The notes beneath the pieces are model-generated. The model worked only from the letters and a program-made list of their open reading frames with translations, was not told where the DNA came from and did no database searches. A DNA stretch of 36,400 bases from a virus: positions 1 through 36,400 of IMG/VR virus record IMGVR_UViG_3300048832_000084; one strand, written 5' to 3'. The translations under genes were made by a program, and so were the position numbers. Positions within the stretch are counted from its first letter, which is position 1. Each line of letters opens with the position of its first letter. Positions 2,060 to 27,285 of this stretch are shown piece after piece.

Positions 2060-2974
2060 TTAGCTGAATGAGCCGAAGGTTTCAAGTGTATGCCAAATTA
2101 TGAGTTTGCCCATAAATAACATGTCCCAGCCGGAGGATTGTACGGGGTTTATTTGGCCTTTTTCCCATATCCAGTCATTACCCAAGGCAGAACCGTCAAC
2201 TATCTCGGCCATCGCTAAATACCTATCGATCATTTCAACGGTAAAATGACGCTTTGCGAGAAACTCATAGAATAAATTATCAGGTTGACGCTTGTGGCAA
2301 ATTTCACCAACTTTGATCGAATATTCACGGCTTTGACCAATGAGGTATTTAATATAGGCCTGAACTGCCTTGAGATGAAGTTGATAGCCTAGTTCAACGT
2401 TTTCAGCCTCAAAGACTGAAATGTCACCGTCATATTTATCCCAATCTCTCATTTGATCGTGTTTTTTCCAACCTCTAAATTGCCATACACGACCCATCAA
2501 AGCCCACATGGTTGGTGTGATGTTTGCACGATCATCGTCCTGAACACAAACTTTATAAATGGGTGATCGTAGGGCACAACCACCGCCAGCCCACTTAGGT
2601 TTTTTAACTAAACATGGCCTTGAACAATCAATATAATCAATCCATCTTTGAGCTGTTTCAGTCGGGAATTCACTGTCGATCATGGCGCAAAGCAAACCAA
2701 GGGTCATGTCACGGCTAAAACCCCATTCACCGGAATAACGCTTTTTTGGTGAACGGTAAAACATACCGCTTTGATCTTGGCATTCAAGAATGCTTTTTAG
2801 TGCCCATTTATTGTCAGATGGAAACAACACGGTGTTCAATAGTCCCATAAATAGCATGGAATCACCGCTATCAATGTAACGATTGCCCGCTTGTGTTATT
2901 CCGGATGCTAACAACGGTTCTAAAAACTGACAGTAATCTTTAATTTTTTGTATTTTTGGATTCATGCCTGTCAT
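2060..2974 (-). CDS. Unknown helical protein, possibly alpha/alpha-toroid glycan-active
   Basis: A 304-residue protein taken from the ATG at 2974, which directly follows the stop of the upstream gene; a longer frame to 3052 would overlap that gene heavily. It is rich in Trp, Cys and Met. SGDSMLFMGLL near the N-terminus is echoed by SGWDMLFMGKL near the C-terminus. The repeated helical segments and conserved aromatics (GEWGFSRDMTLGLLCAM) recall alpha/alpha-barrel glycoside hydrolases or epimerases, but I do not recognise a family. It lies at the end of the nucleotide-sugar cassette, which weakly supports a glycan-related role. No signal peptide is visible. Confidence 0.55.
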   Translation of the reverse strand: MTGMNPKIQKIKDYCQFLEPLLASGITQAGNRYIDSGDSMLFMGLLNTVLFPSDNKWALKSILECQDQSGMFYRSPKKRYSGEWGFSRDMTLGLLCAMIDSEFPTETAQRWIDYIDCSRPCLVKKPKWAGGGCALRSPIYKVCVQDDDRANITPTMWALMGRVWQFRGWKKHDQMRDWDKYDGDISVFEAENVELGYQLHLKAVQAYIKYLIGQSREYSIKVGEICHKRQPDNLFYEFLAKRHFTVEMIDRYLAMAEIVDGSALGNDWIWEKGQINPVQSSGWDMLFMGKLIIWHTLETFGSFS

Positions 2975-2975
2975 T

Positions 2976-3227
2976 TTAACGTTTAGCTGGATTTTGTTCA
3001 ATTTCAAAAAGTTGTGCCTCTGTACGAAATTTAGGCTTGATTCGTGGACCACGGTACCTCGGTGTTAAATCTATTGGTTTGATTGGTTCTTTTACTTCGA
3101 TATGTCGGTTTTCCCAAAAGTTTTTGCGTATTGATCTGAATTGTAGCCACAAAAATATGAATAGGCCAATAAATAGCACATAAACAACGATTGCAGTGAT
3201 CCAAATCAAACCTGAGATTGCCTCCAT
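2976..3227 (-). CDS. Small single-pass membrane protein
   Basis: An 83-residue protein with a strong N-terminal transmembrane helix (about residues 7-29, rich in Ile/Val/Leu/Phe/Trp) followed by a basic, proline-containing soluble tail (YRGPRIKPKF). It overlaps the end of the acetyltransferase gene by 22 bases, indicating co-translation. It could be a holin, spanin or envelope anchor for a sugar-modifying step. No family is recognised. Confidence 0.6.
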   Translation of the reverse strand: MEAISGLIWITAIVVYVLFIGLFIFLWLQFRSIRKNFWENRHIEVKEPIKPIDLTPRYRGPRIKPKFRTEAQLFEIEQNPAKR

Positions 3228-3748
3228 TCTGCCTCCATAAATTCTTGACGAGTCATTGAAACAAGATGGCAGTCAATAAAATGACCTTCTCTAAAATAGA
3301 ATTGCCGCCGTGTCCCATCATGTTTCATACCTATCTTTAAAAAAATATCATAAGCATGATTACCTGAAAAAGTCTCCCCCCAAATCACATTTAAATTCTG
3401 ATTCAAAAAACCATGAGAGAACAAAGTTTTTAATGCAGCAGTTGCAAGACCTTTTTTTTGATATTCAGGGCCAATATAAAGAGAAAATTCAGCCCTTTGA
3501 TTGATTCGGTCAATATCTGTCAGACCACATATGCCGATAGGAATTTCAGCATCATAAATAACATACATTTTTATTGTACTATCTTTAGCTATCTTATCAA
3601 ACCAATCGGCATGATTTTTGTAGTTCAAAACATCATTTTGACGGCACCATTTCCACACGCGATAATCATTTCTCCAAATAAATGCCAAATCACCTACAGC
3701 TTCATATGATGCTGATAAAAGTCTAACCCCATGTCCGAAATCAATCAT
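3206..3748 (-). CDS. GNAT N-acetyltransferase, PseH-like
   Basis: A 180-residue GNAT-fold acetyltransferase. The acetyl-CoA binding region is the segment around IGPEYQKKGLATAALKTLF (about residues 92-110), the Q/RxxGxA/G signature. The N-terminal layout (FIWRNDYRVWKW, then HADWFD) resembles PseH, which N-acetylates the 4-amino group of UDP-4-amino-4,6-dideoxy sugars in pseudaminic acid synthesis. The ATG overlaps the aminotransferase stop (ATGA), so it is translated right after the enzyme likely to make its amino substrate. Exact substrate is inferred from context; RimJ-like activity on a protein remains an alternative. Confidence 0.75.
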   Translation of the reverse strand: MIDFGHGVRLLSASYEAVGDLAFIWRNDYRVWKWCRQNDVLNYKNHADWFDKIAKDSTIKMYVIYDAEIPIGICGLTDIDRINQRAEFSLYIGPEYQKKGLATAALKTLFSHGFLNQNLNVIWGETFSGNHAYDIFLKIGMKHDGTRRQFYFREGHFIDCHLVSMTRQEFMEAEWRQSQV

Positions 3749-4977
3749 TGTCTTTCCCTTATAATTTGTGCAACTGCCTTACGTGGCATTGGTCCTTTTA
3801 AATATGCTTTACCATCAGATATTTTTTTAAGTGCAAACTCACTTACCATCATAAACTCGTCAATGTGATGCTTCGTAGCATGATTCAAAAAGAATGTCTT
3901 TTTCGTGAAAATTCTATTTTCTACCAGTTCCTGACGAAATAAAGCAACATTTAAATCAGAGCCAACAAAATTCATTCTTGCCCCCCAACCCTCAAATTTT
4001 ATGATCTCAGGACTTAATGAATTGAATCGGTCTTTTAACAGCAAAGCCCTTTCATTCAAATCATCCACGTCGTATTTAGTGTCATGTTTCGATAAATACA
4101 TGCAATAATCGGTCGCTTTTAAACTTGGAATATGACCAAAATAGGTACCGCTCACAAAATAATCACCATCCAATATGTCGGATCGTCCTGCTACAATTCC
4201 GATCTTGTAACCGTTGGCACAGGCTTTACCTAGGCATATGAGATCGGGGTAAATATTCCAGTGTTTCGCGACTGATAATGATGGATAGCGCATACCAGTA
4301 ATGACTTCATCGAAGATAAGTACTATTCGATGGCGATCACAAAACTCTTTTATTTTTTTAAGATAATTGATGCGATCCTTGGAATCATCTACCATTACGG
4401 GTTCCATGATAATCGCTGCTATATCATGCTTGAAATACCCATGATTGAATTTATCTAGATCGATGGAAAAATTCTCAAGAGATTGAAACCGATGTCCTAA
4501 AGGAGTGCCTACAGCATTGTCATTCCATGCAGTTGCCTCATCGTACCAACCGTGATAGCCCTCCCATAATACGATATCTTTACCCGTAAACGCTCTAGCC
4601 ATGCGAATGGCTGCCATGCAAGCCTCAGTACCATCATTGAGGAATTTAACCCGATCGCACCAATGAAACGTTGCCTTGACGCGCTCGGCTGTAAAGATCT
4701 CTTGTACAGTGTTGCCAGAAAGACAACCGCCATGTCCTGAAACCTTCATCACCGTGTTTTCTAGTTGCTCGTTAGCATAACCAAGGTTGATAGCACCAAG
4801 GCCTGAAACAAAATCAAGGTATCTAGTTCCTTCTGTGGTGTAAAGGTAGGAACCGTAACCCTTTTCAAAGTGCGTAGGAAAAACACCTAAAACATCAGTA
4901 TCAGGATGCTTTGAATTTGTGAGTGATCCCTGAGCTATTGATAGCTTCGAACGATCGAGCCATAACTTAGTACTCAT
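3745..4977 (-). CDS. Class-III PLP aminotransferase (GSA-aminomutase-like)
   Basis: A 410-residue fold-type I, class-III aminotransferase. Visible elements are the phosphate-binding GTEA (116-119), YHGW (141-144), the PLP-ring aspartate in IFDEVITG (D223) and the Schiff-base lysine in ICLGKACANG (K251). It is related to glutamate-1-semialdehyde aminomutase, but its context between a dehydratase, a cytidylyltransferase and an acetyltransferase points to sugar amination rather than tetrapyrrole synthesis. Classical PseC belongs to the DegT family, so this would be a non-orthologous 4-aminotransferase or a different sugar. It overlaps the cytidylyltransferase end by 11 bases. Enzyme class firm, substrate inferred. 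Confidence 0.85.
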   Translation of the reverse strand: MSTKLWLDRSKLSIAQGSLTNSKHPDTDVLGVFPTHFEKGYGSYLYTTEGTRYLDFVSGLGAINLGYANEQLENTVMKVSGHGGCLSGNTVQEIFTAERVKATFHWCDRVKFLNDGTEACMAAIRMARAFTGKDIVLWEGYHGWYDEATAWNDNAVGTPLGHRFQSLENFSIDLDKFNHGYFKHDIAAIIMEPVMVDDSKDRINYLKKIKEFCDRHRIVLIFDEVITGMRYPSLSVAKHWNIYPDLICLGKACANGYKIGIVAGRSDILDGDYFVSGTYFGHIPSLKATDYCMYLSKHDTKYDVDDLNERALLLKDRFNSLSPEIIKFEGWGARMNFVGSDLNVALFRQELVENRIFTKKTFFLNHATKHHIDEFMMVSEFALKKISDGKAYLKGPMPRKAVAQIIRERQ

Positions 4978-5704
4978 AAACGTAAAGACCTTCCTCTATC
5001 GCTGCTTTTTTCTTGGTGTAAGCATCATTGAAGCGCTTCTTTGCTGCTTGATATTCTTCTTCTGTATCGATGCATAGCTTAATATCAGAAAGATCCTCTT
5101 TGGTGAGCAATGCTGACTTTTTTAAGTTAGGCGGCATTAGTTCCCTGATAGCTAGGGTTACATGCTCTTTATGTCGATCGCTGTTAGCGTTTTCGCGTAG
5201 CCAGTTCAAGGCGTTCCACGACATTATCTCGATATCATGGCCGTCTATAGATGTTCGGTATTTTTCCCAGACATTCGAACAGTAATCGATATCATGATAG
5301 ACTGATGTCCATATTGCCTTATTCATGGCGAGTTGCGGAACATTCGGACAATCGGCCGTTAGTCTCATGATATAGTCATATGCATCCGGCAATAAATCCG
5401 TGTAACGGGATAGTACATTTGTCATCGATCCAGCGCGAACTATGACGTGCTTTGTCTTTAAATACTCAACCCAATAATCATACTCGGCTTCTGGGACTAA
5501 AACGATTATATCCACTGAAACGCTAGTATTTGGATCTCGTTTGGCCTCGACATGGTCTGCACATGACCGGCAATTTTGGATTAAACTCGATATTGCAGTG
5601 ATGCCAGTCGATGAAATTGGCAAGATCGATTTATTAGGTAGCCGTGATGATGAAAGACGGCATTGAATAGCAATGGCTACCTTCTTTTTCACTTTCTTGA
5701 TCAT
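4967..5704 (-). CDS. SpsF/CMP-sugar cytidylyltransferase-like protein
   Basis: A 245-residue nucleotidyltransferase-fold protein. The N-terminus AIAIQCRLSSSRLPNKSILP matches the nucleotide-binding signature of SpsF, KdsB and acylneuraminate cytidylyltransferases (usually xxQARxxSxRLPGKxLxP), and YIMRLTADCPNVP matches the RxTxDCPxxxP metal and product loop. The likely reaction is CTP plus a sugar acid giving CMP-sugar plus pyrophosphate. The canonical Gly before Lys in the first loop is Asn here. ATGA overlap with the upstream gene. No NeuB/PseI synthase or PseG hydrolase is encoded in the window, so the acceptor sugar acid would have to come from the host or the product is different. Confidence 0.8.
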   Translation of the reverse strand: MIKKVKKKVAIAIQCRLSSSRLPNKSILPISSTGITAISSLIQNCRSCADHVEAKRDPNTSVSVDIIVLVPEAEYDYWVEYLKTKHVIVRAGSMTNVLSRYTDLLPDAYDYIMRLTADCPNVPQLAMNKAIWTSVYHDIDYCSNVWEKYRTSIDGHDIEIMSWNALNWLRENANSDRHKEHVTLAIRELMPPNLKKSALLTKEDLSDIKLCIDTEEEYQAAKKRFNDAYTKKKAAIEEGLYVYEY

Positions 5705-6027
5705 CGGTATTGTCCGCCATTATGATAGTAAATGTCATTTTTATCAATTTGCTCAATGTGAATCAATGCACCGCCATTTTTCATGTCTGATAGAATCTTG
5801 AGAACATCATTTGAAGGTTTTTTTGCTGCCTCTTGTAGCTTTGTGCTTAAACGTTCAACCTGTTCTTTATTGAGTGCAGCGTCCTCTAATGCCTGTTGAT
5901 AAAGTAGTCGCAAACGTCCCAATTCGTCTTTGAGCATAATTGCATCAAATTTTTTTATAAAATACATCACTGTCGAAATAATACACCCGAGCGATATGGC
6001 TACCGCAGTTATTCCATTTAATTGCAT
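5701..6027 (-). CDS. Membrane-anchored coiled-coil protein (i-spanin-like?)
   Basis: A 108-residue protein taken from the ATG at 6027, which has AAAAGGAAAA upstream; a longer frame to 6069 would overlap the dehydratase gene. One N-terminal transmembrane helix (about residues 4-24) is followed by a long amphipathic coiled coil rich in Leu, Gln, Glu and Lys (about 30-75), then a short polar tail ending NGGQYR. This is the architecture of Rz-type inner-membrane spanins, but no partner outer-membrane lipoprotein gene is nested within or beside it, so the call is tentative. It lies between two sugar genes. Confidence 0.5.
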   Translation of the reverse strand: MQLNGITAVAISLGCIISTVMYFIKKFDAIMLKDELGRLRLLYQQALEDAALNKEQVERLSTKLQEAAKKPSNDVLKILSDMKNGGALIHIEQIDKNDIYYHNGGQYR

Positions 6028-6028
6028 G

Positions 6029-6892
6029 TTATTTTCCTTTTGAGCAATAATCCAAGACGGTAGGACCAACTAGCCCACATAACTCATCAAACGAATAATG
6101 TTCGGCTGTATCACTTCGAATACAACTATCATGGTCACTCTTTAAGTGCTCGTGAATTTTTTCGCCTGGCCTAATACCTGTTACATTTATGTCATAGGCC
6201 ATTTTCATAATATGGGATATAGCCTCGACAAGATCAATGACCTTAGCGGATTTAATCTTAGGATGAATGAGCACATCTGCATTACGATCATGCTCATCAC
6301 TTGTCACAAATTGGATAGCATCATCTATTTTGAGCCAGAATCTTGTCATATCGGGATGTGTGATATTTACAACCCCTTTTTCAATCTGCTGCATAAACCC
6401 ATGGATAGCTGACCCTTGGGAACCTATGATATTACCCCATCTAAAAATATCAATTCTTCTATCCGTAGCCTTTTTTATTGCTAACAAATGTTTTTCAGCT
6501 AACGCTTTTGTCATGCCATAAAGGTTTATTGGTAGCACTGCCTTATCCGTTGAAAAAAATACGAACCTATCACAATCAACGTGATTGAATAAATTGATGG
6601 TGCCTTGATAGTTCACTGAATGATAATGCATGGGATAACATTCACCAAAATCAACGTGTTTTGATGCGGCACAATGATAAACTACATGTGCTCTCGTAGA
6701 TAAAACACCGTGTAAATCATTGCGAATATCCCCAAGATGCCAAGTTACTTGTGGATATTGTGCTGACCACTGCTTAATCTTATGATCGCACCTAGAAAGA
6801 GCACAAACATGGTCGCCTTGCTCTACGTGGTATTTAAGTAATCTTGATCCTAAAGTGCCGGTCGCGCCGGTGATGATAACGAGTTTTTTCAT
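6029..6892 (-). CDS. SDR nucleotide-sugar 4,6-dehydratase, PseB/FlaA1-like
   Basis: A 287-residue extended short-chain dehydrogenase. It has the NAD(P) Rossmann motif ITGATGTLG (7-15), the catalytic STDKA (114-118) and YGMTK (125-129), followed by GNIIGSQGSAI and the substrate-binding MTRFWL. These match UDP-GlcNAc 4,6-dehydratases of the PseB/FlaA1/CapD group, which start pseudaminic acid and related 4,6-dideoxy amino sugar pathways. At 287 residues it is slightly short against about 330. It is the first gene of the sugar cassette and follows a 112-bp gap after the fibre gene, where a promoter may lie, though none is clear. Confidence 0.85.
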   Translation of the reverse strand: MKKLVIITGATGTLGSRLLKYHVEQGDHVCALSRCDHKIKQWSAQYPQVTWHLGDIRNDLHGVLSTRAHVVYHCAASKHVDFGECYPMHYHSVNYQGTINLFNHVDCDRFVFFSTDKAVLPINLYGMTKALAEKHLLAIKKATDRRIDIFRWGNIIGSQGSAIHGFMQQIEKGVVNITHPDMTRFWLKIDDAIQFVTSDEHDRNADVLIHPKIKSAKVIDLVEAISHIMKMAYDINVTGIRPGEKIHEHLKSDHDSCIRSDTAEHYSFDELCGLVGPTVLDYCSKGK

Positions 6893-7004
6893 CTAATGCC
6901 TTCAATAAGTCGTAGAATATAAAGTTTTGCTGGTAACAATATCTTATATCGATGATGTTGACTACAAATATTTTTTTAACCAGATGAGACAAAAATTTTT
7001 CATT

Positions 7005-7628
7005 TTAAGATATTTTAGTCAGCCACCAAGTTCCAGTTAATGTGCTTCCGCTATCTTGCCTGATTTGGACGTTGACATCACTATCAATCTGAACGTAAGA
7101 AGTAGCCCCATCATTTTTATTAAATAAAGCTACTGCTGTATTGCTACCCTGAATTAAAGCATTTCCACAATATGCCTGACTACTTGCCGTTTTAAATGCC
7201 CATGAAAATAGCCAAATCCCAAATGTAGTAGCACCAATTGTAAATGTTTTCACAGTAGTATACGTTCCCGATGAACAACTTTGAGTTCCTGTTTCTGATA
7301 ATACATATGTTGAAACAACACCACCATTAAAAGTTTTAGCACCTGAAAATTCTTGCGCTGCTGTAGTAACTAACCCCTTTTGTGTTGCCGATGCATCTCC
7401 GCCAGTGCCAGCAAAAGCACCATTCACGGTAATAACATCACCGGTAGCATTTCCGAGATCTACCGCACCATTCAACGTTGCTTTTCCTGCTGCTGTAATT
7501 GCATCTATGTTCAGGGATTTAGTGCCATCGGTCAGACCATTGATGATATCGGTAAAATTTTGATTAACTTGGGATGCGTCCGCAACGCTGCCGTTTGTAA
7601 AAGTGTAGGTTACTGCTGGATTTGCCAT
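7005..7628 (-). CDS. Tail fibre / receptor-binding-type protein
   Basis: A 207-residue protein. The N-terminal part (ASQVNQNFTDIINGL, about 17-31) is the AsxVNxNFxxI motif typical of phage fibre and appendage proteins. The middle (ASATQKGLV, about 79-87) is the xATxxxxGLV fibre-repeat motif, and the C-terminal 90 residues are Thr/Ser-rich and beta-predicted. GAGGA lies before ATG. It is the last gene of the virion block before the sugar cassette. A short single fibre gene suggests either limited receptor range or dependence on another spike. Ser/Thr-richness also makes it a possible glycosylation acceptor. Confidence 0.7.
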   Translation of the reverse strand: MANPAVTYTFTNGSVADASQVNQNFTDIINGLTDGTKSLNIDAITAAGKATLNGAVDLGNATGDVITVNGAFAGTGGDASATQKGLVTTAAQEFSGAKTFNGGVVSTYVLSETGTQSCSSGTYTTVKTFTIGATTFGIWLFSWAFKTASSQAYCGNALIQGSNTAVALFNKNDGATSYVQIDSDVNVQIRQDSGSTLTGTWWLTKIS

Positions 7629-7630
7629 TA

Positions 7631-10033
7631 TTATTGTTCCTCACGATTAGGTGTTATAAGTGATGATCTTGCTGCCTCGGTCGCTCCAAATGTCTTAGCC
7701 GATTCTAGTCTTTTTCCTGTTTTTATCATCTTATCACCTGCCTTTGAAGGTTCAATGACTAATTCTTTGTACTTATTGATTCGACTAGCCTCGGCTCTAA
7801 TTTCCTTAAGTGGTTCAAGCCATGTTGATGGTTTGAATAACTCAAGGTTTTGTGCTGTTTTAGATGGGTTTGCCATCGATCTTTTGAAACTACCAATGTC
7901 AACAATTGCCTTGACCTTATTCACGTGATCCGGTCCAAAGATGGCAAGTAACTCATCCTTAGATTTAGTTTTAAGACGATTGACAACGGCTGCACCAAAT
8001 TCTTCGGATGGTCCCACTTTTTTGTAGATTGAATCAAGGAAATTACCTAACTCAATTTTATCTGTAGCTTCATTGACGATATCAGCTACATTAGTGATCT
8101 TTTCGTTGGCTTTTTCACCAAGGAGTGCAATTTTTTGGGTATCGGTAAGTTTTTTGAACTCATTAAGTACTACATTCCTAACATCTTTTCTTGTCTGTGC
8201 TACCTCAAGCCATATTTTACCCAACTTTTGACTAACCATTTGCTTGTATTCTTCGCCATAGTTTTTCATCAGCCATTTGGCTTTTTCGATATCATTTTCA
8301 GATGCTATCTTAGAAAAGATAGTTTCAGGTGACGTTTTAGCTAGCTCGTCTAGCTTTTCTTTGGCACTAAAAGCCCTACTTGATGACACACCAGGCCTTT
8401 TTACAATCGAAGTGATATCTTCATTCAAACTTTTATAAATACTGTCAGCTTTTTTGAGACTTTTGTAAATATCCTCATAATAAGCTACTGACTTTTTCGC
8501 CATGGGATCTAAGCTACCCTTAGATTTTTTTATGATGTTCATGATGGTGTCTGAAAATGTTTGTGATCTTGCATCCAAAACAGCGGACCTTATGGCTTTA
8601 CCTGCTGCCCTAACGCTTTTATTACCATCTTCAATGTTATCAAGAAGAATTCTGCTAAAATCTTGAAGACCATCCATCGTTTTTATTTCATCAACGTTGC
8701 TTTTCATAACATCTAGCCATTGATCGAACTGACCACCAACACCGACCTCTTTGGGACGAAGTGACTTGATTGTTTTATATATCTCTCTTTTCGCTGGCAC
8801 TAGTTCCTTTCCTGCGAAAGCAGCATCTACTTTCTGATATAGTTCCGATGCTTCCTTGTACTTATCTGTTAGTTTACCCATGATTGTTTTACGAATATTT
8901 TCGCCAACCACTGGCTCTAATTGCCCTGCTGGTGCCTGTTTCGCTCCCATGATGGTGTTCAGTACTTGCACAGCTTTTTCATCGGCCTTTTTACCGACTT
9001 CTTTAATGCCTTGTTCTATCTCATCGATTCCTACCCCGAAGTTTTGTTTACTTGCACCATCAAGTGAATCCGATAGCGCCTTTCCCCATGCCTTGGCATT
9101 CTGCTCGACTTGGGATTTTAATTGCCTCGTGAAAGGAAAAAAGTTTGAACTGCTGCGAACGATAGCATCCTCAAGCTCTCTGACTGATTCATCAGCAAAT
9201 TTTGAGGCAGCAGTTGCAGCTCCACCTATGATTTTCCATCCCTTCTCAAGTACATCTGAACCTTTTCTAAGTCCTAATTTTGCTGCCGCAGAAGCCTTTT
9301 TACCAAGACCATAGGCCTTAGCAGCTTCGCCAGCGCCCTTTAGCAAACCTCCAGTTGTAGCACCTATCAACGCCTCTTGGCCTATCAGTCCTGTATCTGG
9401 ACGATCTCTTAATCCTGCTGCAATACCGATTCCTTGCCTTAAGGCCTCAGTAGTGCCTCCGAGAGCACCGCCTAGTCCAGCAGCTACCCCAATACTTGCG
9501 CCGGCCGTTGCTGGTGCTCCAATTGCACCGACCACCTTAGCACCAGTGCCGGCGGCTTCAGCGATCCCCTTGACTACATCAAAGCCAATATCACCGATCT
9601 CAAGAGCAAAATCAGACCAATCCATACCATCGGGGTCAATCACTTTAAACATAGCCTCATCGGGTTTTCTCACTTCGACTCTGTTCTTGACAATCCTCGT
9701 TTCATAACCTTTTTCATCGAGATACTTCTTTTGTAGTGCAGGATTTTCATCGATAAAGTTTTTTATTGCAAAACGCTCTCTTGGGAGTATGCCTCTTTTT
9801 TCCTCAGCAGGTAAATTACTTGCTACCTTCGAAAACACCATGTTTTTAGTCTTGATGGATTCCGGCATGTCAGGCGTTTGACTTGCATTGCGATAACTCA
9901 TAACGTCTTTTTGAGTTAGACCAAGGGCATTTGCATACGTCACCGCTTTTTTCTTTTTGACGGGATCATCCTCATTATCAAAATTATCTGTGATAAAATT
10001 GAGTGTTTTAACTGCGCTTGATAATTCTGGCAT
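7631..10033 (-). CDS. Large internal virion / DNA ejection protein
   Basis: An 800-residue protein, the largest in the window. Residues about 155-207 form a Gly/Ala-rich hydrophobic stretch (GAPATAGASIGVAAGLGGAL) like membrane-inserting segments of podoviral ejection proteins, followed by long charged helical regions. It starts one base inside the stop of the previous gene and has GGGGAG upstream. Position after the tail hub and other internal proteins matches the ejection-protein slot of podoviruses (P22 gp7/gp20/gp16 or T7 gp14-16). No lysozyme or transglycosylase motif is evident. Family not named from sequence. Confidence 0.7.
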   Translation of the reverse strand: MPELSSAVKTLNFITDNFDNEDDPVKKKKAVTYANALGLTQKDVMSYRNASQTPDMPESIKTKNMVFSKVASNLPAEEKRGILPRERFAIKNFIDENPALQKKYLDEKGYETRIVKNRVEVRKPDEAMFKVIDPDGMDWSDFALEIGDIGFDVVKGIAEAAGTGAKVVGAIGAPATAGASIGVAAGLGGALGGTTEALRQGIGIAAGLRDRPDTGLIGQEALIGATTGGLLKGAGEAAKAYGLGKKASAAAKLGLRKGSDVLEKGWKIIGGAATAASKFADESVRELEDAIVRSSSNFFPFTRQLKSQVEQNAKAWGKALSDSLDGASKQNFGVGIDEIEQGIKEVGKKADEKAVQVLNTIMGAKQAPAGQLEPVVGENIRKTIMGKLTDKYKEASELYQKVDAAFAGKELVPAKREIYKTIKSLRPKEVGVGGQFDQWLDVMKSNVDEIKTMDGLQDFSRILLDNIEDGNKSVRAAGKAIRSAVLDARSQTFSDTIMNIIKKSKGSLDPMAKKSVAYYEDIYKSLKKADSIYKSLNEDITSIVKRPGVSSSRAFSAKEKLDELAKTSPETIFSKIASENDIEKAKWLMKNYGEEYKQMVSQKLGKIWLEVAQTRKDVRNVVLNEFKKLTDTQKIALLGEKANEKITNVADIVNEATDKIELGNFLDSIYKKVGPSEEFGAAVVNRLKTKSKDELLAIFGPDHVNKVKAIVDIGSFKRSMANPSKTAQNLELFKPSTWLEPLKEIRAEASRINKYKELVIEPSKAGDKMIKTGKRLESAKTFGATEAARSSLITPNREEQ

Positions 10034-11322
10034 TACTTTTTACTCCCCATGAATAAATCAGCAGCATCCTCATCCGTCAAATCCTGCTTAGTTTTGAAAA
10101 TGGGAGAATATGGACTTGGTACCTTAGAATTGCTTTTAAGCACATCTTTTAGTGATTTTGGAAGTGATAGGGCTTTAGTTTCATAATATGCCTTGGCCTT
10201 ATCTCTAATCTCGGACATTACGCGCCTAACGCCTTCAGCATCATTATTACCCGCGGCTGTGTTTAATTCTGTCGATAGCCTCATGGCCTCGCTTTCACTA
10301 ATAGCTGCGCCGGATCTTTTTTGTAGAAGTAAGTTGATAACACCGGCAATCGTGGCTTGATTCCTTGTTGCTTCTTTACTGAGAAAACGTCGCCCAAGTA
10401 TTCCCGTATACCCCGTAGTAGGTATCATTGATGATGAATCGGTAACACCGTCAATGTTTTGTTTTCTATCTGCAACAATATTGCCGTCCTTGACGGCATA
10501 GTCTATACCTATTTCACGATCGAAACGCTCTAAAGCACCAATGAAATTGGTATCATCTTCTTTGATTGTATTTTGATATTGCGTCAATTTTTTATCTAAA
10601 AACGTGGGCGAATTATCGAGTGCCTGTTGCGGTGATGGATTCTCGATACCATTAGCAATTGCTGTGCTCCAACCTGCTAGTAGTTCCGAATCCTTTTTTG
10701 CCCACTCTGGAGGTTTAGGTTTACCTGGCTCTTCATCTGTTTTTATCTTTTTTGCCGTATCTGCCGAGATCCAAATCGGAACTTCCTGCTGATTAGCTGG
10801 ATCAATGTAAAATGATTTGACTGTATTCGGCTTTGGTTGTAGAGACCAATTTTTGACTTTACCAGTTGTAATATCTGTGAGAGGAATACCCCCCCTAGAC
10901 CTGATGTTTATGTCGTTTATGCGGCTACTGCTTTCCGTTTGTTTGTCTAGATATGCCTGAATTTGAGCCGGTTCTTTGTTGATATAATAAAACCTTTTTA
11001 ACTGTGTTTTAGGCTTTCCAGTATCAACGTCATAGATCGCCTTACCTGTAGGTGTCCGCTCTATTTCCTGGACATAACCAATTGATGCGCCTTTGGTGTC
11101 TGGTGTGACTTTATATAAGTTTGAAACTTCCGATTCCGTGAATTCACCAGCTTCTAAGCGTTTTCTGGCTGTTTCTTCTTCATCCAAAAGTTTTTGCTTT
11201 TGCTCGTTAAGCTTCATTTGATCATAAGCGGATTTAACACCCATAATTGATTGAACAACGCTCAATCCCTGCGATATTTTATCGAGTGCGCTACGCCTTT
11301 GCGGTATATATACCTCTGCCAC
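10033..11322 (-). CDS. Internal virion protein with shared AEVxIPxxRS N-terminus (GTG start)
   Basis: A 429-residue protein. I place the start at GTG 11322, with GGAGG 9 bases upstream, rather than the TTG at 11358 of the longest frame. From there the protein begins (V)AEVYIPQRRSALDKI, closely matching the start of the upstream neighbour, MAEVFIPEKRSTLSKF. The shared N-terminus confirms the start and suggests a common docking or packaging tag. The rest is charged and helical with Gln/Lys/Glu-rich stretches (about 40-75). It overlaps its neighbour by 32 bases. Likely an ejection or internal virion protein. Confidence 0.75.
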   Translation of the reverse strand: MAEVYIPQRRSALDKISQGLSVVQSIMGVKSAYDQMKLNEQKQKLLDEEETARKRLEAGEFTESEVSNLYKVTPDTKGASIGYVQEIERTPTGKAIYDVDTGKPKTQLKRFYYINKEPAQIQAYLDKQTESSSRINDINIRSRGGIPLTDITTGKVKNWSLQPKPNTVKSFYIDPANQQEVPIWISADTAKKIKTDEEPGKPKPPEWAKKDSELLAGWSTAIANGIENPSPQQALDNSPTFLDKKLTQYQNTIKEDDTNFIGALERFDREIGIDYAVKDGNIVADRKQNIDGVTDSSSMIPTTGYTGILGRRFLSKEATRNQATIAGVINLLLQKRSGAAISESEAMRLSTELNTAAGNNDAEGVRRVMSEIRDKAKAYYETKALSLPKSLKDVLKSNSKVPSPYSPIFKTKQDLTDEDAADLFMGSKK

Positions 11323-12019
11323 TTTTCTTACCTCCAAGGTTTTGACGTGCCTTTTCAAGCTTCATCGAGATTTGTCTTGATTCTTCTGGTGGTAGCCCTG
11401 CGACTTTTAGCGCCTTTTGTGCTTCTGTAATATCTCGCATTGCATTTTGTTGACTTGCTTGCCTACGATCGATTGCACTCATTGAATCACTGTCAGTTAG
11501 GCCAAGACCCATGTTTTTTAGATTAGTTTTTGTCGCACCAACTGGATCAGAAAATCCGCTTGCAACTTTAGTTTGCATCTTATCTTGAAATGATCCAGGT
11601 TTTTGCCCTTGACCTATCGCATATCTACCTGCACCTTCACTATTTCTCGTTCCCTCTCTCACACCCGACTGATATTTATACTCGTCGTAGGCAGCAGTGC
11701 CAAGAGCTGCAGCAGGTGCGACATATCCCATGGCAGAGGAACCACTCGATGCGGTAGTGGACGCATTTGTGGCTGGCACGGCTTTTTCACCGCCCATGGC
11801 ATATTTATAAGCAGCAGCACCAGCGACGCCTACACTACCGCCTCCCCCTCCACCACCTTCCGTGCCGCCTCCATCGGTTGGTGTGCCTTTTCCAGCGGTT
11901 AATGATCCCCAAGCCTGTTTACCTTTTGCACCAGCCTGAATTAGGCTTGACCCCTGTTCGAACATTCCGGCAAATTTTGATAATGTGCTTCTTTTTTCTG
12001 GAATAAAAACTTCTGCCAT
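11291..12019 (-). CDS. Gly/Ala-rich internal virion protein with AEVxIPxxRS N-terminus
   Basis: A 242-residue protein starting MAEVFIPEKRSTLSKF, then a low-complexity Gly-rich region (about 48-63) and an Ala/Gly-rich hydrophobic middle (about 64-112), and a charged helical C-terminus (about 180-235). The N-terminal 16 residues are paralogous to those of the next gene. AGAGGT lies upstream of ATG. The Ala/Gly-rich region could insert into a membrane during DNA ejection. Likely one of a set of internal virion proteins; no named family. Confidence 0.7.
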   Translation of the reverse strand: MAEVFIPEKRSTLSKFAGMFEQGSSLIQAGAKGKQAWGSLTAGKGTPTDGGGTEGGGGGGGSVGVAGAAAYKYAMGGEKAVPATNASTTASSGSSAMGYVAPAAALGTAAYDEYKYQSGVREGTRNSEGAGRYAIGQGQKPGSFQDKMQTKVASGFSDPVGATKTNLKNMGLGLTDSDSMSAIDRRQASQQNAMRDITEAQKALKVAGLPPEESRQISMKLEKARQNLGGKKSGRGIYTAKA

Positions 12020-12025
12020 ATTATT

Positions 12026-13042
12026 TTACCTCTTACCAAGTGGATATTTCATCGAGTAACCATCGCCGCCAAATAAATCACCGAGAATTTGACCAAAAAA
12101 ACCGCTTTCATTATATTTTTGGATGTCTTTTGCAATTTTTTGGTTAGCCTCAATAACAGCGTCTTCTCTGATCTCAGCCCTATCTAGGCGTTTTTGTGTC
12201 TCGTTATATTCTTGATTTTGACGTTCAAATTCTTTAGCCATTTGCTCCTGTTGATCTTTATATTGGCGTTGTTCAAATACTCTTTTTGCTTCGCTCTCTG
12301 CTGCACCTAATCGCATACCTGCACGCTGAATATTTCGCGCTTGTGTTGCTTGGTCTGCTGATTGCATTGCCCTTGCTTGTTCAGATGATAATCCTAGCTG
12401 TGATTCTGCTGCACGACGTCCAGCCTCTTGTTCTGATTGCTGTGCCATCCTCATTCCTGCACCACTACCACCCATTCCGGATGCTGCCAATCTTCTCGCC
12501 ATCGCCGACTGTTCAGTCCGTCGTTGACCACCTTCCCTTAGTTTTGCTAGCTCACTCATATCCCTGTATTGTTGACCTATCTGTGACCTCATAAAATCAG
12601 AGGATTCATTATCCCCGATTAGTGCAACTAAATTTGGATTTTCGGCTGCTGATGCCTCACTCGTTAGATTCAATTTTTGAGTAAAAGACTGATAAGGGTC
12701 AACTAATCCAGGAAGCCTATTACCTGTGTCCTGATTTCGCATGGTGTTTGTTGTGTTGTCTGTTATGTTTTGAATCGGTTTAATAATGTCTGTTTGAAGC
12801 GTATTTTTAAGCGGTTTTGTTACCGGACTAATTAATTTTTGACCATACTTTTTAAGCGGATTAATACTGCCCTGTTTAACGGATTGGTAAGTTGCTACGG
12901 TCGGTTGTTTAACAGCCAATGAATAAATGTCACCAGCACCTTTTGATACTGTAGAAGCCACACCTCCGACACCACTTGATATTTTTTTACCTGCTGCCGG
13001 TTCTAAAACTGTTTTTCTAAATTTCTCCCATGCTGCTGCCAT
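12026..13042 (-). CDS. Coiled-coil internal virion protein
   Basis: A 338-residue protein. The N-terminal 130 residues are Thr/Lys/Pro-containing and loosely ordered. Residues about 150-315 are a long Gln/Glu/Arg/Ala-rich helix with coiled-coil character, including a Met/Gly-rich hinge (ASGMGGSGAGMRMAQQ). The C-terminus is glycine-containing (GQILGDLFGGDGYSM). A helical rod with a glycine hinge is typical of podoviral internal or ejection proteins. The ATG overlaps the stop of the tail hub gene by one base, with AAGGGG upstream. Confidence 0.65.
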   Translation of the reverse strand: MAAAWEKFRKTVLEPAAGKKISSGVGGVASTVSKGAGDIYSLAVKQPTVATYQSVKQGSINPLKKYGQKLISPVTKPLKNTLQTDIIKPIQNITDNTTNTMRNQDTGNRLPGLVDPYQSFTQKLNLTSEASAAENPNLVALIGDNESSDFMRSQIGQQYRDMSELAKLREGGQRRTEQSAMARRLAASGMGGSGAGMRMAQQSEQEAGRRAAESQLGLSSEQARAMQSADQATQARNIQRAGMRLGAAESEAKRVFEQRQYKDQQEQMAKEFERQNQEYNETQKRLDRAEIREDAVIEANQKIAKDIQKYNESGFFGQILGDLFGGDGYSMKYPLGKR

Positions 13043-14967
13043 TATCTTTTCCCCTTGAGGTTGTAGGTTAGATTTAAACCGATCACCTTAAACCCACTAT
13101 TTACAGTGTTTTTATTCGAAAATTTAAACTGAATTCGTTTCCCTCGAAACTGGCCGAGTGGTTGTTTTATATCTTTTGATGTTGATCCTGCATCCCAATT
13201 GTCTGAACCAAAAATTAATGTCCCCCAAACAGAATCGCCAGGATCACAATCGAGATCATAAGTAAAGCCATCACCGGAATCCGAATCAACACGTATCGTG
13301 ATACCCATGTCCCAGTCACCTATAAGGCCATAAAGAAGGTTGGCAAACCGCCAATCCTTAAACCAAGTCGAATGTGGTGCTTGACCTGAAAACTCTTTAG
13401 TAAAGAAATATGAATTTATGGCTACCCCGTTGTCGGAATATGTAGTTTGATTCATTTGGTAGACAAAACCTACAGCATCAGCCGATGCATAGTAGAGATT
13501 ACCGTTATAAACAACAAATTGAGCTGCATTAATACCGCTCCATGGTGCCCACGTATATTTTTGACTCTTTTCTAGCCCATTCCGTGAAAAGTCAAACACA
13601 AAAACCCGATTATTATAAGTCGAACTACCTGATGGAACTGAAATATAGGCTTTGTTTTTATAAACAAGTGAAGCAATCTTGTTGAGGTATGTCGAATTTA
13701 CCGCAAACATCTCATTTTCGATAGGGGTCGATAGTAGTTCGCTTCCTACCGTACCAACGTCCGTAAGGGATGCTGTGGGCTCAATACCTGCTGCCGTTAA
13801 AGCACCAAAACCAACAAATTTATCCTTTTCAATGGCTGGAAAAATGAGAAAATTAAGGGCTTCGAACAGACCTTTCGGTGATTTACTCCCAAATTGTGAT
13901 CGGATGCGTAATTGGACCCAGTCAGAATCGTCGGTAGTTGGCATGTAAATCATCCAGGCTGTACCACGCGCACCGTGAACAATCAAATAGTTGTCCCACA
14001 ATCCCAAAGAATTCGGTACATCAATGGTTTGGTCCCCAATATTGATGAAATTTAAGGTTCCCCAAACATAAGGGTTATTGAGATCAGAATAGTAGACGCG
14101 GTCGTAATCATCACCTGGATAACGTCCGATAGCAAAAATTCTGCTTTGATGATAAAGGCAAGGGCCATAATTTGGCGGCACGTTTTGATCACTAGCTGCC
14201 TCATCACCGAGGCCAGCATCTGCAAGTGCGTCAACATATGTTGTTGCAGTATTATCTGCGATGCTTCCAGCATAATATAACACCGTTCCACTTGCTTCCG
14301 TTCGATAGATATTTCGACTGCTAACACCAAATGATTGAGGTGCAACTGGAACCGAGGTCAACTGAACTGCTGAACTAGCTGCCGTAAACGTTGCCGTAAA
14401 TGGACTAAGATCACTCTCAACCAAAGCACTATTAACGTACGCTACTGCCCATCTATAATCGCCTGAAATACCACTAACGGAAGTACTTGCAGAAGCTACC
14501 GACATCGTGCTGGTCGGTGCATAAATACCTTGACGAGTAAACGCCAAGCCGTTCCACTTATAAGGTATGGTTCCCGATCCAAAGCCAAAAAATATGTTGT
14601 TTTGGTACTCAGTGGAAAAAACCGCATTACCTGCGGTGTGAATAGATGTTGCACTGGCTACGGCCGTAAATGTCGTAGTACCAAGGGTAAACATTGTACC
14701 GCCAAAGAACACACACATAGTCTCGTTTATCGAACCGCGTTCATGGCGAACATAAATACCATCGCAAGCAAACGTTCCAACTGATGCCGTATTGACTTTT
14801 ACCGTTCCAGGTCTAGTTTGTACTGAATCATCGTCAAAAATCACATTCAAACAACTTGGCGACTGGTTATCAAGAATAATGTTCTTTTCAATTTTTGAAT
14901 TCTGACCACCATTGAACCTGATATAGTCTTCATTCGGTGGGTATGCCACATTGAAATAGTTAGCCAT
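13042..14967 (-). CDS. Tail hub / DNA stabilisation protein, P22 gp10-like
   Basis: A 641-residue beta-rich protein. I use the ATG at 14967 (GAGGTG upstream) rather than GTG 14973. The N-terminus (FNGGQNSKIEKNIILDNQSP, then SVQTRPG) is the usual start of short-tailed-phage tail-closure proteins, in which repeated beta blades form a propeller (P22 gp10, packaged-DNA stabilisation protein, and related tail nozzle proteins). It sits directly after the adaptor gene, as expected. Blade-like repeats with YYADS/YYASADA-type strands are visible to about residue 500. Specific family membership is inferred from layout and N-terminal motif. Confidence 0.7.
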   Translation of the reverse strand: MANYFNVAYPPNEDYIRFNGGQNSKIEKNIILDNQSPSCLNVIFDDDSVQTRPGTVKVNTASVGTFACDGIYVRHERGSINETMCVFFGGTMFTLGTTTFTAVASATSIHTAGNAVFSTEYQNNIFFGFGSGTIPYKWNGLAFTRQGIYAPTSTMSVASASTSVSGISGDYRWAVAYVNSALVESDLSPFTATFTAASSAVQLTSVPVAPQSFGVSSRNIYRTEASGTVLYYAGSIADNTATTYVDALADAGLGDEAASDQNVPPNYGPCLYHQSRIFAIGRYPGDDYDRVYYSDLNNPYVWGTLNFINIGDQTIDVPNSLGLWDNYLIVHGARGTAWMIYMPTTDDSDWVQLRIRSQFGSKSPKGLFEALNFLIFPAIEKDKFVGFGALTAAGIEPTASLTDVGTVGSELLSTPIENEMFAVNSTYLNKIASLVYKNKAYISVPSGSSTYNNRVFVFDFSRNGLEKSQKYTWAPWSGINAAQFVVYNGNLYYASADAVGFVYQMNQTTYSDNGVAINSYFFTKEFSGQAPHSTWFKDWRFANLLYGLIGDWDMGITIRVDSDSGDGFTYDLDCDPGDSVWGTLIFGSDNWDAGSTSKDIKQPLGQFRGKRIQFKFSNKNTVNSGFKVIGLNLTYNLKGKR

Positions 14968-16924: not shown

Positions 16925-17272
16925 TTATGCAATGCCAATTACACTAAAAATATACGATGCCTGAGTTGTGGCACTCGTTAAATAAATTTGAAAATACTGA
17001 CCTAGAGGCGGCACTCCCACAATCGCATTCGAAACGCTTGAAGGAATGTTTACTACCGTAGGTGCTGCCGTTGCTACCGTTGGTGCATGATACAAGGTTG
17101 AATAGGTCGTTCCCTCGTCATGTGAAACAGCAAAGCGAACATCACCACCGCTTGCCATTGATGGAATTCGGACTTGATAAGCCTTGTATCCACCACCAAT
17201 GTTAAACGTTACTGCTGTGGTAGCAGAAGCCAAAGATTTTGAAAACACCTTAACAGGTGATATCGTGGACAT
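16925..17272 (-). CDS. Small beta-rich virion protein
   Basis: A 115-residue protein, Ala/Ser/Thr/Val-rich and beta-predicted, without charged clusters or membrane segments. The VRFAVSHDEGTTYSTLYHAP segment is compatible with a decoration or fibre-base domain. Starts two bases after the stop of the gene at 17275. No strong ribosome-binding site, so translation is probably coupled. Ser/Thr content of about one quarter makes it a possible glycan acceptor. No family recognised. Confidence 0.6.
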   Translation of the reverse strand: MSTISPVKVFSKSLASATTAVTFNIGGGYKAYQVRIPSMASGGDVRFAVSHDEGTTYSTLYHAPTVATAAPTVVNIPSSVSNAIVGVPPLGQYFQIYLTSATTQASYIFSVIGIA

Positions 17273-17274
17273 GG

Positions 17275-17517
17275 TTATCTACCAAACACAATTACATAAA
17301 AATTATCTCCATTAACTGCTGCCGAAACTGTGATCGTCCCACCACTTGCTTTCATAAGTGGACTAGCAGTTGCCATCGAAATTGGTGCTATTGAATAACC
17401 AGCAATTGTTGATAAGCCTGTGGGTATCGTTCCAGAAGCACCGTCAGCAGTGACGTTGCAGAAATGGACCCTCATATTGCCAAAAACAGTTTTTTCTTGT
17501 GTGACTGTATATGCCAT
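17275..17517 (-). CDS. Small virion protein
   Basis: An 80-residue protein, Thr/Ser/Ala-rich and beta-predicted, with AGAGAGG upstream of ATG. Lies between the DUF115 glycosyltransferase-like gene and another small structural gene, in the same transcript. Similar in length and composition to small head decoration proteins. A candidate substrate for the neighbouring DUF115 protein by proximity only. Confidence 0.6.
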   Translation of the reverse strand: MAYTVTQEKTVFGNMRVHFCNVTADGASGTIPTGLSTIAGYSIAPISMATASPLMKASGGTITVSAAVNGDNFYVIVFGR

Positions 17518-17531: not shown

Positions 17532-18560
17532 TTAAAAAAGAATTACGTCTTTACCTGCAATCGGTGCCGTGGGTTCTTCGACACGATATTTTAGTTTTTC
17601 ACTCAAAGAATTCATCTCGAATACTTTATCAAGATCCATTTGCAATATCGACATGATATTGCCCTCTCGATACGAGCCCAATGTACCACCTTCAGTCGCA
17701 TTGATATAAATACCTGGGCAAACCATCGTTACATAGTCGAACCACAATTTAAAATTATGATAAGACGGCCATGTTTTGACAGAATTTCCGAAGATATCTA
17801 CAACGCGAATAGTTTGGCCTATTGAAGCGTCATATTGAGAGTCCCAATAATGGAATTTTACTTTGTCCCGATTGCTAAATGCGAAGTCAGAGCCAACAAA
17901 AACAGTGGTTAGCGCACCTAACCACCCTTTTGCAATATAGAGACATGCACCAAGAACATTTCCCCCGTTCGAAACGTACTGATGAAATGGATCTATCTCG
18001 GCTACCTCTTTCATATAGCCATCATCAGGAACCGGAGCATTAAAAAAATAGATAGTACCCTTCCATTTTTTCAATAGGTCGGGATCAGAACCGATGAAAG
18101 CAATCAGAGTACGGTTTGCGGTCATTTCCCAATATTCATCAGGTGTTTTCGTTCCACCTTCTGACACTTCATGAATTGTGATAGGTCCAGCATCTAGTGA
18201 CACGTAAAAATCAACCTCGGAACCGTTGTCTTCCATGGCATGAAAATTGTGCAAGCAGGATATCAACTTGATGTGCTTTGGCCGATTCTTCAATTTCGCT
18301 ATGTTCAGCGACAAGGATGGTCCGCTACCTGCTACTATGCAAGTACCACCAACCCATTGATTGAATAGTTTACCTATTCCTTTTTCTGCAAATGGACCCA
18401 TCGATTTAGAATTTTGAGTGATGTTTGATATCCACTTAGACCTCCAAGCTTGCACAGTTTGAGCATCTGAACTACATGCAGAAGAATACATCTGCTGAAG
18501 TGTCTGAGGCGGATACTGAATATAAGGTTGTAGCTCTAGTTGAATATTCGCTTGTTTCAT
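17532..18560 (-). CDS. DUF115 / Maf-like putative glycosyltransferase
   Basis: A 342-residue protein with the DUF115 (MptE-like/Maf) core: CIVAGSGPSLSLNIAKLKN (about 74-92), then CLHNFHAMEDNGSEVDFYVS and SLDAGP (121-126), SNGGNVLGACLYIA (197-210) and FVGSDFAFSN (221-230). In flagellated bacteria, motility-associated factor (Maf) proteins of this family transfer pseudaminic or legionaminic acid onto flagellin Ser/Thr. Other members act in pterin synthesis, so the activity is not certain. It lies among head genes, between two small Ser/Thr-rich proteins, in the transcript that ends with a nucleotide-sugar cassette. ATG 18560 and GTG 18563 are both possible starts (AAAGGA upstream). Confidence 0.8.
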   Translation of the reverse strand: MKQANIQLELQPYIQYPPQTLQQMYSSACSSDAQTVQAWRSKWISNITQNSKSMGPFAEKGIGKLFNQWVGGTCIVAGSGPSLSLNIAKLKNRPKHIKLISCLHNFHAMEDNGSEVDFYVSLDAGPITIHEVSEGGTKTPDEYWEMTANRTLIAFIGSDPDLLKKWKGTIYFFNAPVPDDGYMKEVAEIDPFHQYVSNGGNVLGACLYIAKGWLGALTTVFVGSDFAFSNRDKVKFHYWDSQYDASIGQTIRVVDIFGNSVKTWPSYHNFKLWFDYVTMVCPGIYINATEGGTLGSYREGNIMSILQMDLDKVFEMNSLSEKLKYRVEEPTAPIAGKDVILF

Positions 18561-18583
18561 CACTCAAAATCCTTTCAATACGT

Positions 18584-19048
18584 TTACTGGCAGCTAATGT
18601 AGGCTAAACCTGACACGTTTGTCGCTGCTGATACTGTACTAAGCAACTTGGCGAAAAATGGTCCTGTTACGCCTGAAACCCATAGACCATTGGCACCTAA
18701 TTGCATCGGTGCCCCACCTGTTACGGCGGCCGACACATGGATATTACAATGGCCTCTTGTTTGAATCCAGCCATAACATGACGCGCTCAATGTAGCATTT
18801 TTTACCACCCCGAGTGGGACATCAATTTGGGCAGTTGTCGAAATCGTGCAACTATAGCCCGTCGTGCCAGCAAGTGGGGTTACTGCATAACCGATAGGTA
18901 CTGCAGTTGTCGCTGCATTGTAAACATAAAGATACTCATTTCCGCCGTAATTAATGCGGGTTCCTAGTTCTGGATCTTTGGAACCGCGAGTCGCTGTTAC
19001 ACCGGAAAGACCACCAAAGATGATTGGATTTTCACTGTAAAAAGCCAT
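18584..19048 (-). CDS. Head decoration-type protein
   Basis: A 154-residue beta-rich protein (NEYLYVYNAATTAVPIGYAV; LGVVKNATLSASCYGWIQTR) directly downstream of the major capsid gene, with AAGGAG before ATG. Size, composition and position fit capsid decoration proteins that bind HK97-type lattices. Ser/Thr/Ala content is high and it has four or five cysteines. It lies immediately before the DUF115 gene and is the best structural candidate for glycosylation by position and likely surface exposure. Confidence 0.65.
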   Translation of the reverse strand: MAFYSENPIIFGGLSGVTATRGSKDPELGTRINYGGNEYLYVYNAATTAVPIGYAVTPLAGTTGYSCTISTTAQIDVPLGVVKNATLSASCYGWIQTRGHCNIHVSAAVTGGAPMQLGANGLWVSGVTGPFFAKLLSTVSAATNVSGLAYISCQ

Positions 19049-24784: not shown

Positions 24785-24917
24785 TTTTTCGGCCTACCCA
24801 TAATCAACGATTGAAAATGAGAGTATAGATTTGATATGATCCCCATCAGTTTGGTGTTTTTCCTTTTGAGAAAGTCGTTTCATTGTTTAGTAAGTGTACT
24901 CGCTACTGTATAGCTGT

Positions 24918-24950
24918 AAACCCCATAGTTCAACATGGGGTTTATTTTTT
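24918..24950 (+). terminator. Hairpin with T-run, plus-strand-oriented
   Basis: A perfect 9-bp stem (AAACCCCAT / ATGGGGTTT) with an 8-base loop, followed on the plus strand by ATTTTTT. By the usual rule this terminates rightward transcription, although all genes here are leftward. On the minus strand the hairpin follows an A-run and has no T-run. It may block antisense transcripts or act as an RNA-processing or stability element between the 17-residue ORF and terL. Confidence 0.6.
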
Positions 24951-24952
24951 GA

Positions 24953-25006: not shown

Positions 25007-25022
25007 TGTAGACCTCCTTTCT

Positions 25023-26934: not shown

Positions 26935-26943
26935 CTCTGTTTC

Positions 26944-27261: not shown

Positions 27262-27285
27262 CCCCGTGCCTCCCAATGTTGTCAA

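Follow-up and report, generated by a model that had tools for sequence, protein, structure and literature searches.

A family of uncultured phages encodes a predicted CMP-nonulosonate-type pathway and a candidate Maf-like glycosyltransferase

The closest described counterparts of the phage genes reported here are the bacterial PseB-C-H-G-I-F and LegB-C-H-G-I-F pathways, with which they share a PseB-like dehydratase, a PseH-like acetyltransferase, a cytidylyltransferase and, in related phages, a NeuB/PseI-type synthase. The phage set differs from these pathways in having a class-III aminotransferase instead of or beside a DegT enzyme, an added Gfo/Idh/MocA protein, no recognised PseG, an SpsF-type rather than a PseF enzyme, and genes that are split over two phage loci; its proteins also score under the equivalog cut-offs for PseB, PseH, PseI and NeuB. 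FlmG belongs to a cellular system and to a transferase family other than that of the phage DUF115 protein described below. In Caulobacter it carries out NeuB-dependent O-glycosylation of flagellin in the cytoplasm (PMC7591256), and its likeness to the system proposed for the phages is that a dedicated transferase puts a NeuB-made sugar on structural proteins within the cytoplasm. Maf proteins move nonulosonates onto flagellin (PMC13317340).

Phages are already known to modify a host nonulosonate, and some glycosylate their own virions. According to the available part of PMC12053666, two enzymes of an Acinetobacter prophage, EpaA and EpaB, epimerise a host-made capsule sugar, so that here too a phage-encoded enzyme of a cytidylyltransferase family works on a nonulosonate; that part of the source does not report a dehydratase, class-III aminotransferase, GNAT, synthase or Maf-like protein. 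In mycobacteriophages, glycans are found on capsid and tail proteins (Freeman et al. 2023, as cited in the available text of PMC12619734, where a CMP-nonulosonate pathway is not mentioned).

We analysed 36,400 nucleotides of IMG/VR record IMGVR_UViG_3300048832_000084 (positions 1 to 36,400, hereafter the window), an uncultured bacterial virus that likely encodes most of a pathway to an activated sialic-acid-like sugar together with a candidate enzyme for attaching it. A preliminary description had proposed that its nonulosonate-like enzymes and DUF115 gene form an undescribed phage glycosylation system, and our results support this. In the literature searched, a search that most subscription papers lay outside, we found no report of phages that have a near-complete predicted CMP-nonulosonate pathway and a Maf-like transferase among their core genes, on a par with terminase and portal, and no described isolate with such a system was found.

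The four cassette ORFs are intact, lie on the minus strand at the positions first given, and belong to the enzyme families first named, all of them matched by profiles far above chance. They had been described as four in a row at 2976-6892. All four do lie in this interval, but they are not strictly adjacent, as a small gene (5701-6069, minus strand) splits the SDR gene from the SpsF gene; it encodes a predicted single-span membrane protein whose C-terminal motif is conserved. The interval also takes in a second gene for a small, predicted single-span membrane protein (2976-3227, minus strand), which overlaps the GNAT gene. We infer late expression of the cassette from gene position only.

The SDR (6029-6892, 287 aa), a predicted nucleotide-sugar 4,6-dehydratase of PseB/FlaA1 type, matches PF02719 (E=9.5e-57). 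Its best NCBIfam model is PseB (2.2e-50; 171 bits against an equivalog cut-off of 407.75), its closest solved structures are the UDP-GlcNAc 4,6-dehydratases 4j2o and 2gn4, and residues T115/D116/K117 and Y125/K129 are invariant in 11 phages. The SpsF-like cytidylyltransferase (4967-5704), a predicted CMP-sugar synthetase, matches PF02348 (E=1.1e-7), and its profile aligns over the full length with the solved cytidylyltransferase 6oew (E=5.9e-32); it is of the SpsF/COG1861 type, with RxxxxRxPxK and TxDCP motifs kept in the 11 phages. The aminotransferase (3745-4977) falls in PF00202 (E=1.4e-31), which bears out the earlier assignment to the class-III, GSA-type PLP enzymes rather than to DegT/PseC. 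Its best NCBIfam models are PRK00062/hemL, and at 159.6 bits it does not reach the equivalog score of 527.3 for HemL glutamate-1-semialdehyde aminomutase. The candidate PLP lysine K251 and D223 are invariant in the 11 phages, and in a tree 32 phage sequences form one clade (support 100/100) separate from the sampled cellular relatives. The fold model of this protein is of middling confidence (pLDDT 72), and no conclusion rests on it. The GNAT N-acyltransferase (3206-3748) matches PF13302 (E=3.4e-15) and has PseH as its best model (4.5e-18), with 65.8 bits against a curated cut-off of 93.1 (68.8 bits for the homologue in phage G128).

The cassette occupies the same position, with the same gene order, in 11 of 11 related phage records that reach the locus, following the tail-fibre gene, and both it and the DUF115 gene lie in the structural/late region in all of them. 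SDR, SpsF, aminotransferase and DUF115 genes are each present in all 11 genomes, as are terminase and portal; the GNAT is likewise found in 11 of 11, and a fifth cassette gene, for a Gfo/Idh/MocA oxidoreductase, is usual in the relatives and missing from the window. Catalytic motifs and gene order are kept in the 11 phages at identities down to about 26-36%, and gene distances follow those of the portal gene (aminotransferase r=0.85, SpsF 0.86, SDR 0.78, DUF115 0.86; Mantel p<0.001). Accidental or decaying host genes in a single phage, a reading for which the absence of NeuB and Gfo/Idh from the window might speak, are refuted for the phage family by this kept order, these motifs and the portal-tracking distances, and we give the reading a negligible probability; the cassette is not a random pickup of host genes. 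Sequence comparison shows the SDR, Gfo/Idh/MocA, class-III aminotransferase, PseH-like GNAT, NeuB, SpsF and DUF115/Maf-like genes to be a conserved set at fixed positions. In searches of GenBank phages, neither the SpsF nor the DUF115 query gave a phage match, and the aminotransferase matches (about 24-31% identical) were set aside as background, since several are plainly the usual genes of bacteria (hemL, astC, bio locus) within records labelled as phage.

The preliminary description had also noted the lack of a synthase, which is correct for the window and not for its relatives, practically all of which have NeuB. A NeuB-family synthase gene lies directly upstream of the terminase (TerL) gene in 30 of 30 other related records that reach this site, these 30 being every record, among the 45 from the portal and DUF115 scans, that extends upstream of TerL. 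When the aminotransferase was the only query, 27 of the 36 records retrieved carried NeuB as well, and the gene lies within the cassette itself in the distant phages L128, L142, L138, L125, L130, L134, L143 and L144; the NeuB query matched 3 of 50,697 phage records in the background. The NeuB proteins of the relatives score well above the PF03102 gathering threshold, conserve the K, E, YP, SDH and ExH motifs, and have pseudaminic acid synthase 8h2c as their best profile match (1.6e-54), with PseI and NeuB equivalog cut-offs not reached. In the window, the site (24785-25022) is a clean gap that consists of a 17-aa ORF, a hairpin and spacer, matching the position at which the nearest relative, G090, has NeuB. 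Because the upstream small ORF, the hairpin and the terminase start are all retained, the gap looks like a clean deletion rather than assembly loss.

Two explanations had been built on the missing synthase, a pathway that diverts and reshapes a host nonulosonate and a shorter route to a new sugar. As a general account neither finds support, since the synthase is missing from the window genome only, and the related phages carry it upstream of terminase and the distant ones within the cassette. A host-dependent reading is possible for the NeuB-less window genome alone, which may, and given the clean loss probably does, rely on its host to supply either the synthase or the ulosonic acid ready-made.

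The claim that PseG hydrolase and DegT/PseC are lacking stood up. No PseG-like Pfam domain was matched among the scanned proteins of the window and of its relatives (a partial scan for the latter), no DegT-type aminotransferase was matched among the scanned proteins of either, and a NeuC-type hydrolase was likewise not recognised in the family; a weak PseG-like gene occurs only in L144, a phage unrelated to the window family. The class-III aminotransferase adjoins a DegT enzyme in cellular loci, so the phage enzyme may not replace PseC. NeuB clusters holding the cassette enzyme types are found in cells, which supports a nonulosonate-type pathway in the phages: Halorussus has Gfo-SpsF-aminotransferase genes adjoining NeuB and SDR, Pseudosulfitobacter an SpsF::aminotransferase fusion within a PseB/C/G/I locus, and Methylomagnum a locus with SpsF, transketolase, class-III aminotransferase, SDR, NeuB and HAD and without PseB/C/G. 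The class-III aminotransferase/Gfo-Idh variant points to an uncharacterised nonulosonate route that the phages have in common with bacteria and archaea. A scan of genome contigs with five phage aminotransferase queries returned a single match, a HemL-like Poribacteria gene without cassette neighbours, and 85 Poribacteria genomes held one SpsF match, on a 4.8-kb contig without another cassette match; these scans yielded no donor or host.

The DUF115/MptE-like protein (17532-18563, minus strand) is encoded about 11 kb from the cassette, next to head genes, and matches PF01973 (E=2e-19). The best PDB match of its AlphaFold2 model (pLDDT 88) is the Maf flagellin glycosyltransferase 5mu5 (E=5.6e-9, TM-score 0.52 by query length), a member of the same Pfam family, followed by archaeal HPPK and human sialyltransferases; the domain and the fold place it with the Maf proteins. 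It differs from Maf in length (343 aa against >600 aa), shows 15% identity in the structural match, and lies among head genes, not flagellar genes. By its fold the protein might also be a pterin pyrophosphokinase, a reading that we place below Maf. We think it slightly more likely than not that this protein is the transferase of the CMP-nonulosonate pathway. Its co-occurrence with the cassette in related phages, proposed earlier as a refutation test, was borne out, both being core in the family; it is missing from many unrelated phages that have a cassette.

It is highly probable that the phage family encodes a CMP-nonulosonate-type pathway. The SDR would form a 4-keto-6-deoxy amino sugar nucleotide, to which the aminotransferase would add an amino group for the GNAT to acylate; NeuB would condense the freed sugar with PEP, SpsF would activate the product with CTP, and the Maf-like DUF115 protein, working in the cytoplasm, would attach the sugar to a protein at Ser/Thr. 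The sugar is likely destined for the virus particle or another protein of the infected cell. With the DUF115 gene surrounded by head genes and the cassette placed after the tail-fibre gene, a virion protein would be the most likely acceptor, though we put this at slightly under an even chance. One speculative acceptor is a putative head decoration (cement) protein (18584-19048, minus strand; PF22758 Phage_cement, sub-threshold at E=0.087), encoded next to DUF115 and, in the relatives, between it and the major capsid protein. That the pathway feeds the DUF115 transferase, with a virion target and with the NeuB-less window leaning on its host, we regard as fairly likely as a whole. We suggest more tentatively, at somewhat less than even chance, that a widespread uncultured phage lineage makes its own CMP-sialic-acid-like sugar by the class-III-aminotransferase variant and coats its particles by the Maf-like transferase, unrelated phages having gained similar cassettes independently. 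If virions do bear such sugars, this would have a bearing on defence, receptors and immune recognition in animals.

Instead of the virion, the pathway might alter the surface of the infected host cell (its capsule, LPS or flagellin), perhaps as a means of preventing superinfection. EpaA/EpaB set a precedent, reworking pseudaminic acid in the Acinetobacter capsule (available part of PMC12053666). Flagellin is the normal Maf substrate, and the cassette is flanked by small predicted membrane proteins. We nevertheless consider this unlikely, given the tail-fibre and head genes beside cassette and DUF115 in all relatives, the lack of a recognised integrase among the window genes examined, and the resemblance of the modelled DUF115 protein to a cytoplasmic protein glycosyltransferase.

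The product might also be a CMP-linked acid that is not a nine-carbon nonulosonate and that arises by an undescribed route, one in which the class-III aminotransferase takes part and a UDP-sugar hydrolase does not. The finding of no recognisable PseG or DegT gene in the family, the similar enzymes of the Methylomagnum locus and a weak similarity of SpsF to KdsB would fit such a route, which we hold to be quite unlikely, as the PseB-like SDR and PseH-like GNAT fit pseudaminic steps best and the NeuB profile of the relatives lies far closer to PseI/SpsE/NeuB structures than to DAHP synthases. It is decidedly improbable that the window cassette, having lost NeuB and Gfo/Idh with its other four genes intact, ends at a UDP-linked diamino sugar that is used directly, SpsF being idle or acting on a host ulosonate: the window SpsF is as well kept as in NeuB-bearing relatives (68% identical to that of two of them), so a CMP-sugar is arguably still made.

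The small membrane-protein genes are cassette-linked in the relatives. Homologues of the gene at 5701-6069 occur in 9 of the 11 related genomes, the cassettes of L110, L113, L120, L121 and L142 have similar small membrane ORFs upstream of them, and in most cassette loci examined the 3' end of the GNAT gene coincides with the start of a small hydrophobic ORF.

The window spans an entire 36,400-base IMG/VR virus record and carries structural genes (portal, terminase and SU10-type adaptor) on its minus strand. The family assignments that the preliminary description gave to the four minus-strand cassette enzymes hold, and all four ORFs are intact: a PseB/FlaA1-like SDR (6029-6892), an SpsF-like cytidylyltransferase (4967-5704), a class-III aminotransferase (3745-4977) and a PseH-like GNAT (3206-3748). 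Small membrane-protein genes lie between SDR and SpsF (5701-6069) and after GNAT (2976-3227); related phages (kin) have counterparts at the same positions, and similar proteins are also present where the cassette sits elsewhere in the genome (L142; the downstream one in L128).

Four further phage records with this cassette (L001, L002, L007 and L008) came up when the aminotransferase and SpsF were used as queries; three of them have an extra Gfo/Idh/MocA oxidoreductase gene directly before SpsF. Kin were sampled independently by portal-protein (38 loci) and DUF115 (15 loci) searches, and local HMM searches over the resulting records gave a fixed order: NeuB synthase, terminase, portal, major capsid protein, cement protein, DUF115, tail genes, tail fibre, SDR, Gfo/Idh, SpsF, aminotransferase and GNAT. 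All 11 records extending well beyond the tail-fibre gene have SDR, SpsF, aminotransferase and GNAT; six of these came from the portal or DUF115 searches, the others being the window itself or aminotransferase-found. Two further records, G099 and G113, stop at or just beyond the tail fibre and are uninformative on the cassette. The Gfo/Idh protein of the kin cassette is short, and only two of the 11 records, the window and the related G001, lack its gene. For SDR, SpsF, aminotransferase and DUF115, pairwise distances track portal-protein distances (r 0.78-0.86, Mantel p<0.001); NeuB, GNAT and Gfo/Idh do so less closely (r 0.47-0.53). This pattern argues that the cassette has been inherited mostly with the phage backbone rather than acquired repeatedly.

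A NeuB family search found the synthase in four of the first five records, the window being the one without, and in 30/45 kin records; by position, no kin record extending upstream of the terminase gene lacks it. The corresponding window site (24785-25022) has no NeuB, just a short ORF, a hairpin and a spacer. In G090, the window's closest relative, this short ORF is followed by NeuB, so a deletion of the gene in the window's lineage is the most likely explanation. Phage NeuB keeps the catalytic motifs of its family, and its profile matches pseudaminic acid synthase 8h2c (1.6e-54), with SpsE and NeuB structures next. In G002 (2-1549; L026), a single open frame covers NeuB and the structural protein upstream of it, owing to either a fusion or a frameshift.

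The simplest account of the cassette would be a CMP-nonulosonate-type pathway. What the sequences show are family identities, conserved motifs and linkage, core status, and the apparent NeuB loss in the window; inferred beyond that are the reaction order, the sugar made, its transfer and the virion as the thing modified. Neither a nucleotide-releasing hydrolase for the sugar nor a DegT enzyme was recognised among the scanned window and kin proteins. SpsF and class-III aminotransferase genes similar to the phage ones occur in NeuB-bearing cellular loci, which ties the pair, by gene context, to ulosonate metabolism. Halorussus has the order Gfo/Idh, SpsF, aminotransferase, with SDR and NeuB nearby; a Methylomagnum locus has SpsF, a transketolase pair, aminotransferase, SDR, NeuB and HAD; and in Pseudosulfitobacter an SpsF::aminotransferase fusion lies within a PseB/C/G/I locus. 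Since DegT enzymes are also present in Halorussus and Pseudosulfitobacter, equating the class-III aminotransferase with PseC would probably be too simple. The pathway parts are individually of known kinds; our literature search found no report of the enzymes in this combination, of their being core to a phage lineage, or of the variant aminotransferase.

The candidate transferase is DUF115 (17532-18563, beside the head genes), a core gene in the window's family. Its predicted structure (pLDDT 88) matches, in order, the Maf glycosyltransferase 5mu5, an archaeal pterin pyrophosphokinase and human sialyltransferases, and a sequence profile search agrees weakly with the model (5mu5, E=7.7e-4). Maf proteins transfer nonulosonates to flagellin (PMC13317340). 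Among 36 aminotransferase-found records DUF115 was present in 14, and it was not found in many unrelated phages that have a cassette. Elsewhere, therefore, the pathway can presumably operate without this protein.

A wider viral search with 11 aminotransferases gave 46 loci. Within 8 kb of the aminotransferase in loci L104-L145 (n=42, including further copies of records already seen) we found SpsF in 39, SDR in 35, GNAT in 35 and Gfo/Idh in 29. NeuB is encoded by 27 of the 36 aminotransferase-found records, all newly searched, against a GenBank phage background of at least 3 in 50,697 records (a lower bound from a single query). It lies inside the cassette in the distant phages L128, L142, L138, L125, L130, L134, L143 and L144, with the order SDR-NeuB-Gfo-SpsF-AT in L128 and L142. 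In an aminotransferase tree with few cellular sequences sampled, 32 phage sequences, the window's included, form one clade with full support, and those of other cassette phages branch separately, close to or interspersed with cellular sequences, suggesting that cassette-type aminotransferases entered phages more than once. The 57-kb phage record L144 has a fuller nonulosonate locus (4500-14000) with NeuB, SDR, class-III aminotransferase and SpsF, together with a PIG-L/LmbE-type deacetylase, two formyltransferase-like genes and a weak PseG-like gene. Aldo/keto-reductase-like genes in the cassettes of L125, L134 and L143 (Pfam-tested in L125 only) recall EpaA, a cytidylyltransferase/aldo-keto reductase fusion.

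Several other features of these phages were observed. Terminase large subunits are 758-1103 aa, versus the usual about 440, in G001 (26869-29154; L025), G128 (31072-33348), G091, G110 and G117; the G001 insert, ending ...VSNC, looks like an intein. The major capsid protein gene is two open frames in G106 (17246-17467 and 17697-18425) and also split in G116, as an intron or an insertion might cause. The kin phage G128 (L099) has a family-18 glycosyl hydrolase and an N6/N4 DNA methylase (5799-6998 and 9006-10319). In the window, a 330-aa protein without a family match (2060-3052), in a lysis-like region, is shared with G001 alone (72% identical), and a papain-family (C1) cysteine protease whose start resembles that of a lipoprotein (30126-31304), unusual for a phage, is retained in G001 and G002. 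Imperfect hexanucleotide arrays (TGGCTA type) occupy both record ends (3-131 and 36104-36399) and could be a single array at which the assembly of a circular or permuted genome broke; a similar repeat lies at the record end of L008 (11145-11422).
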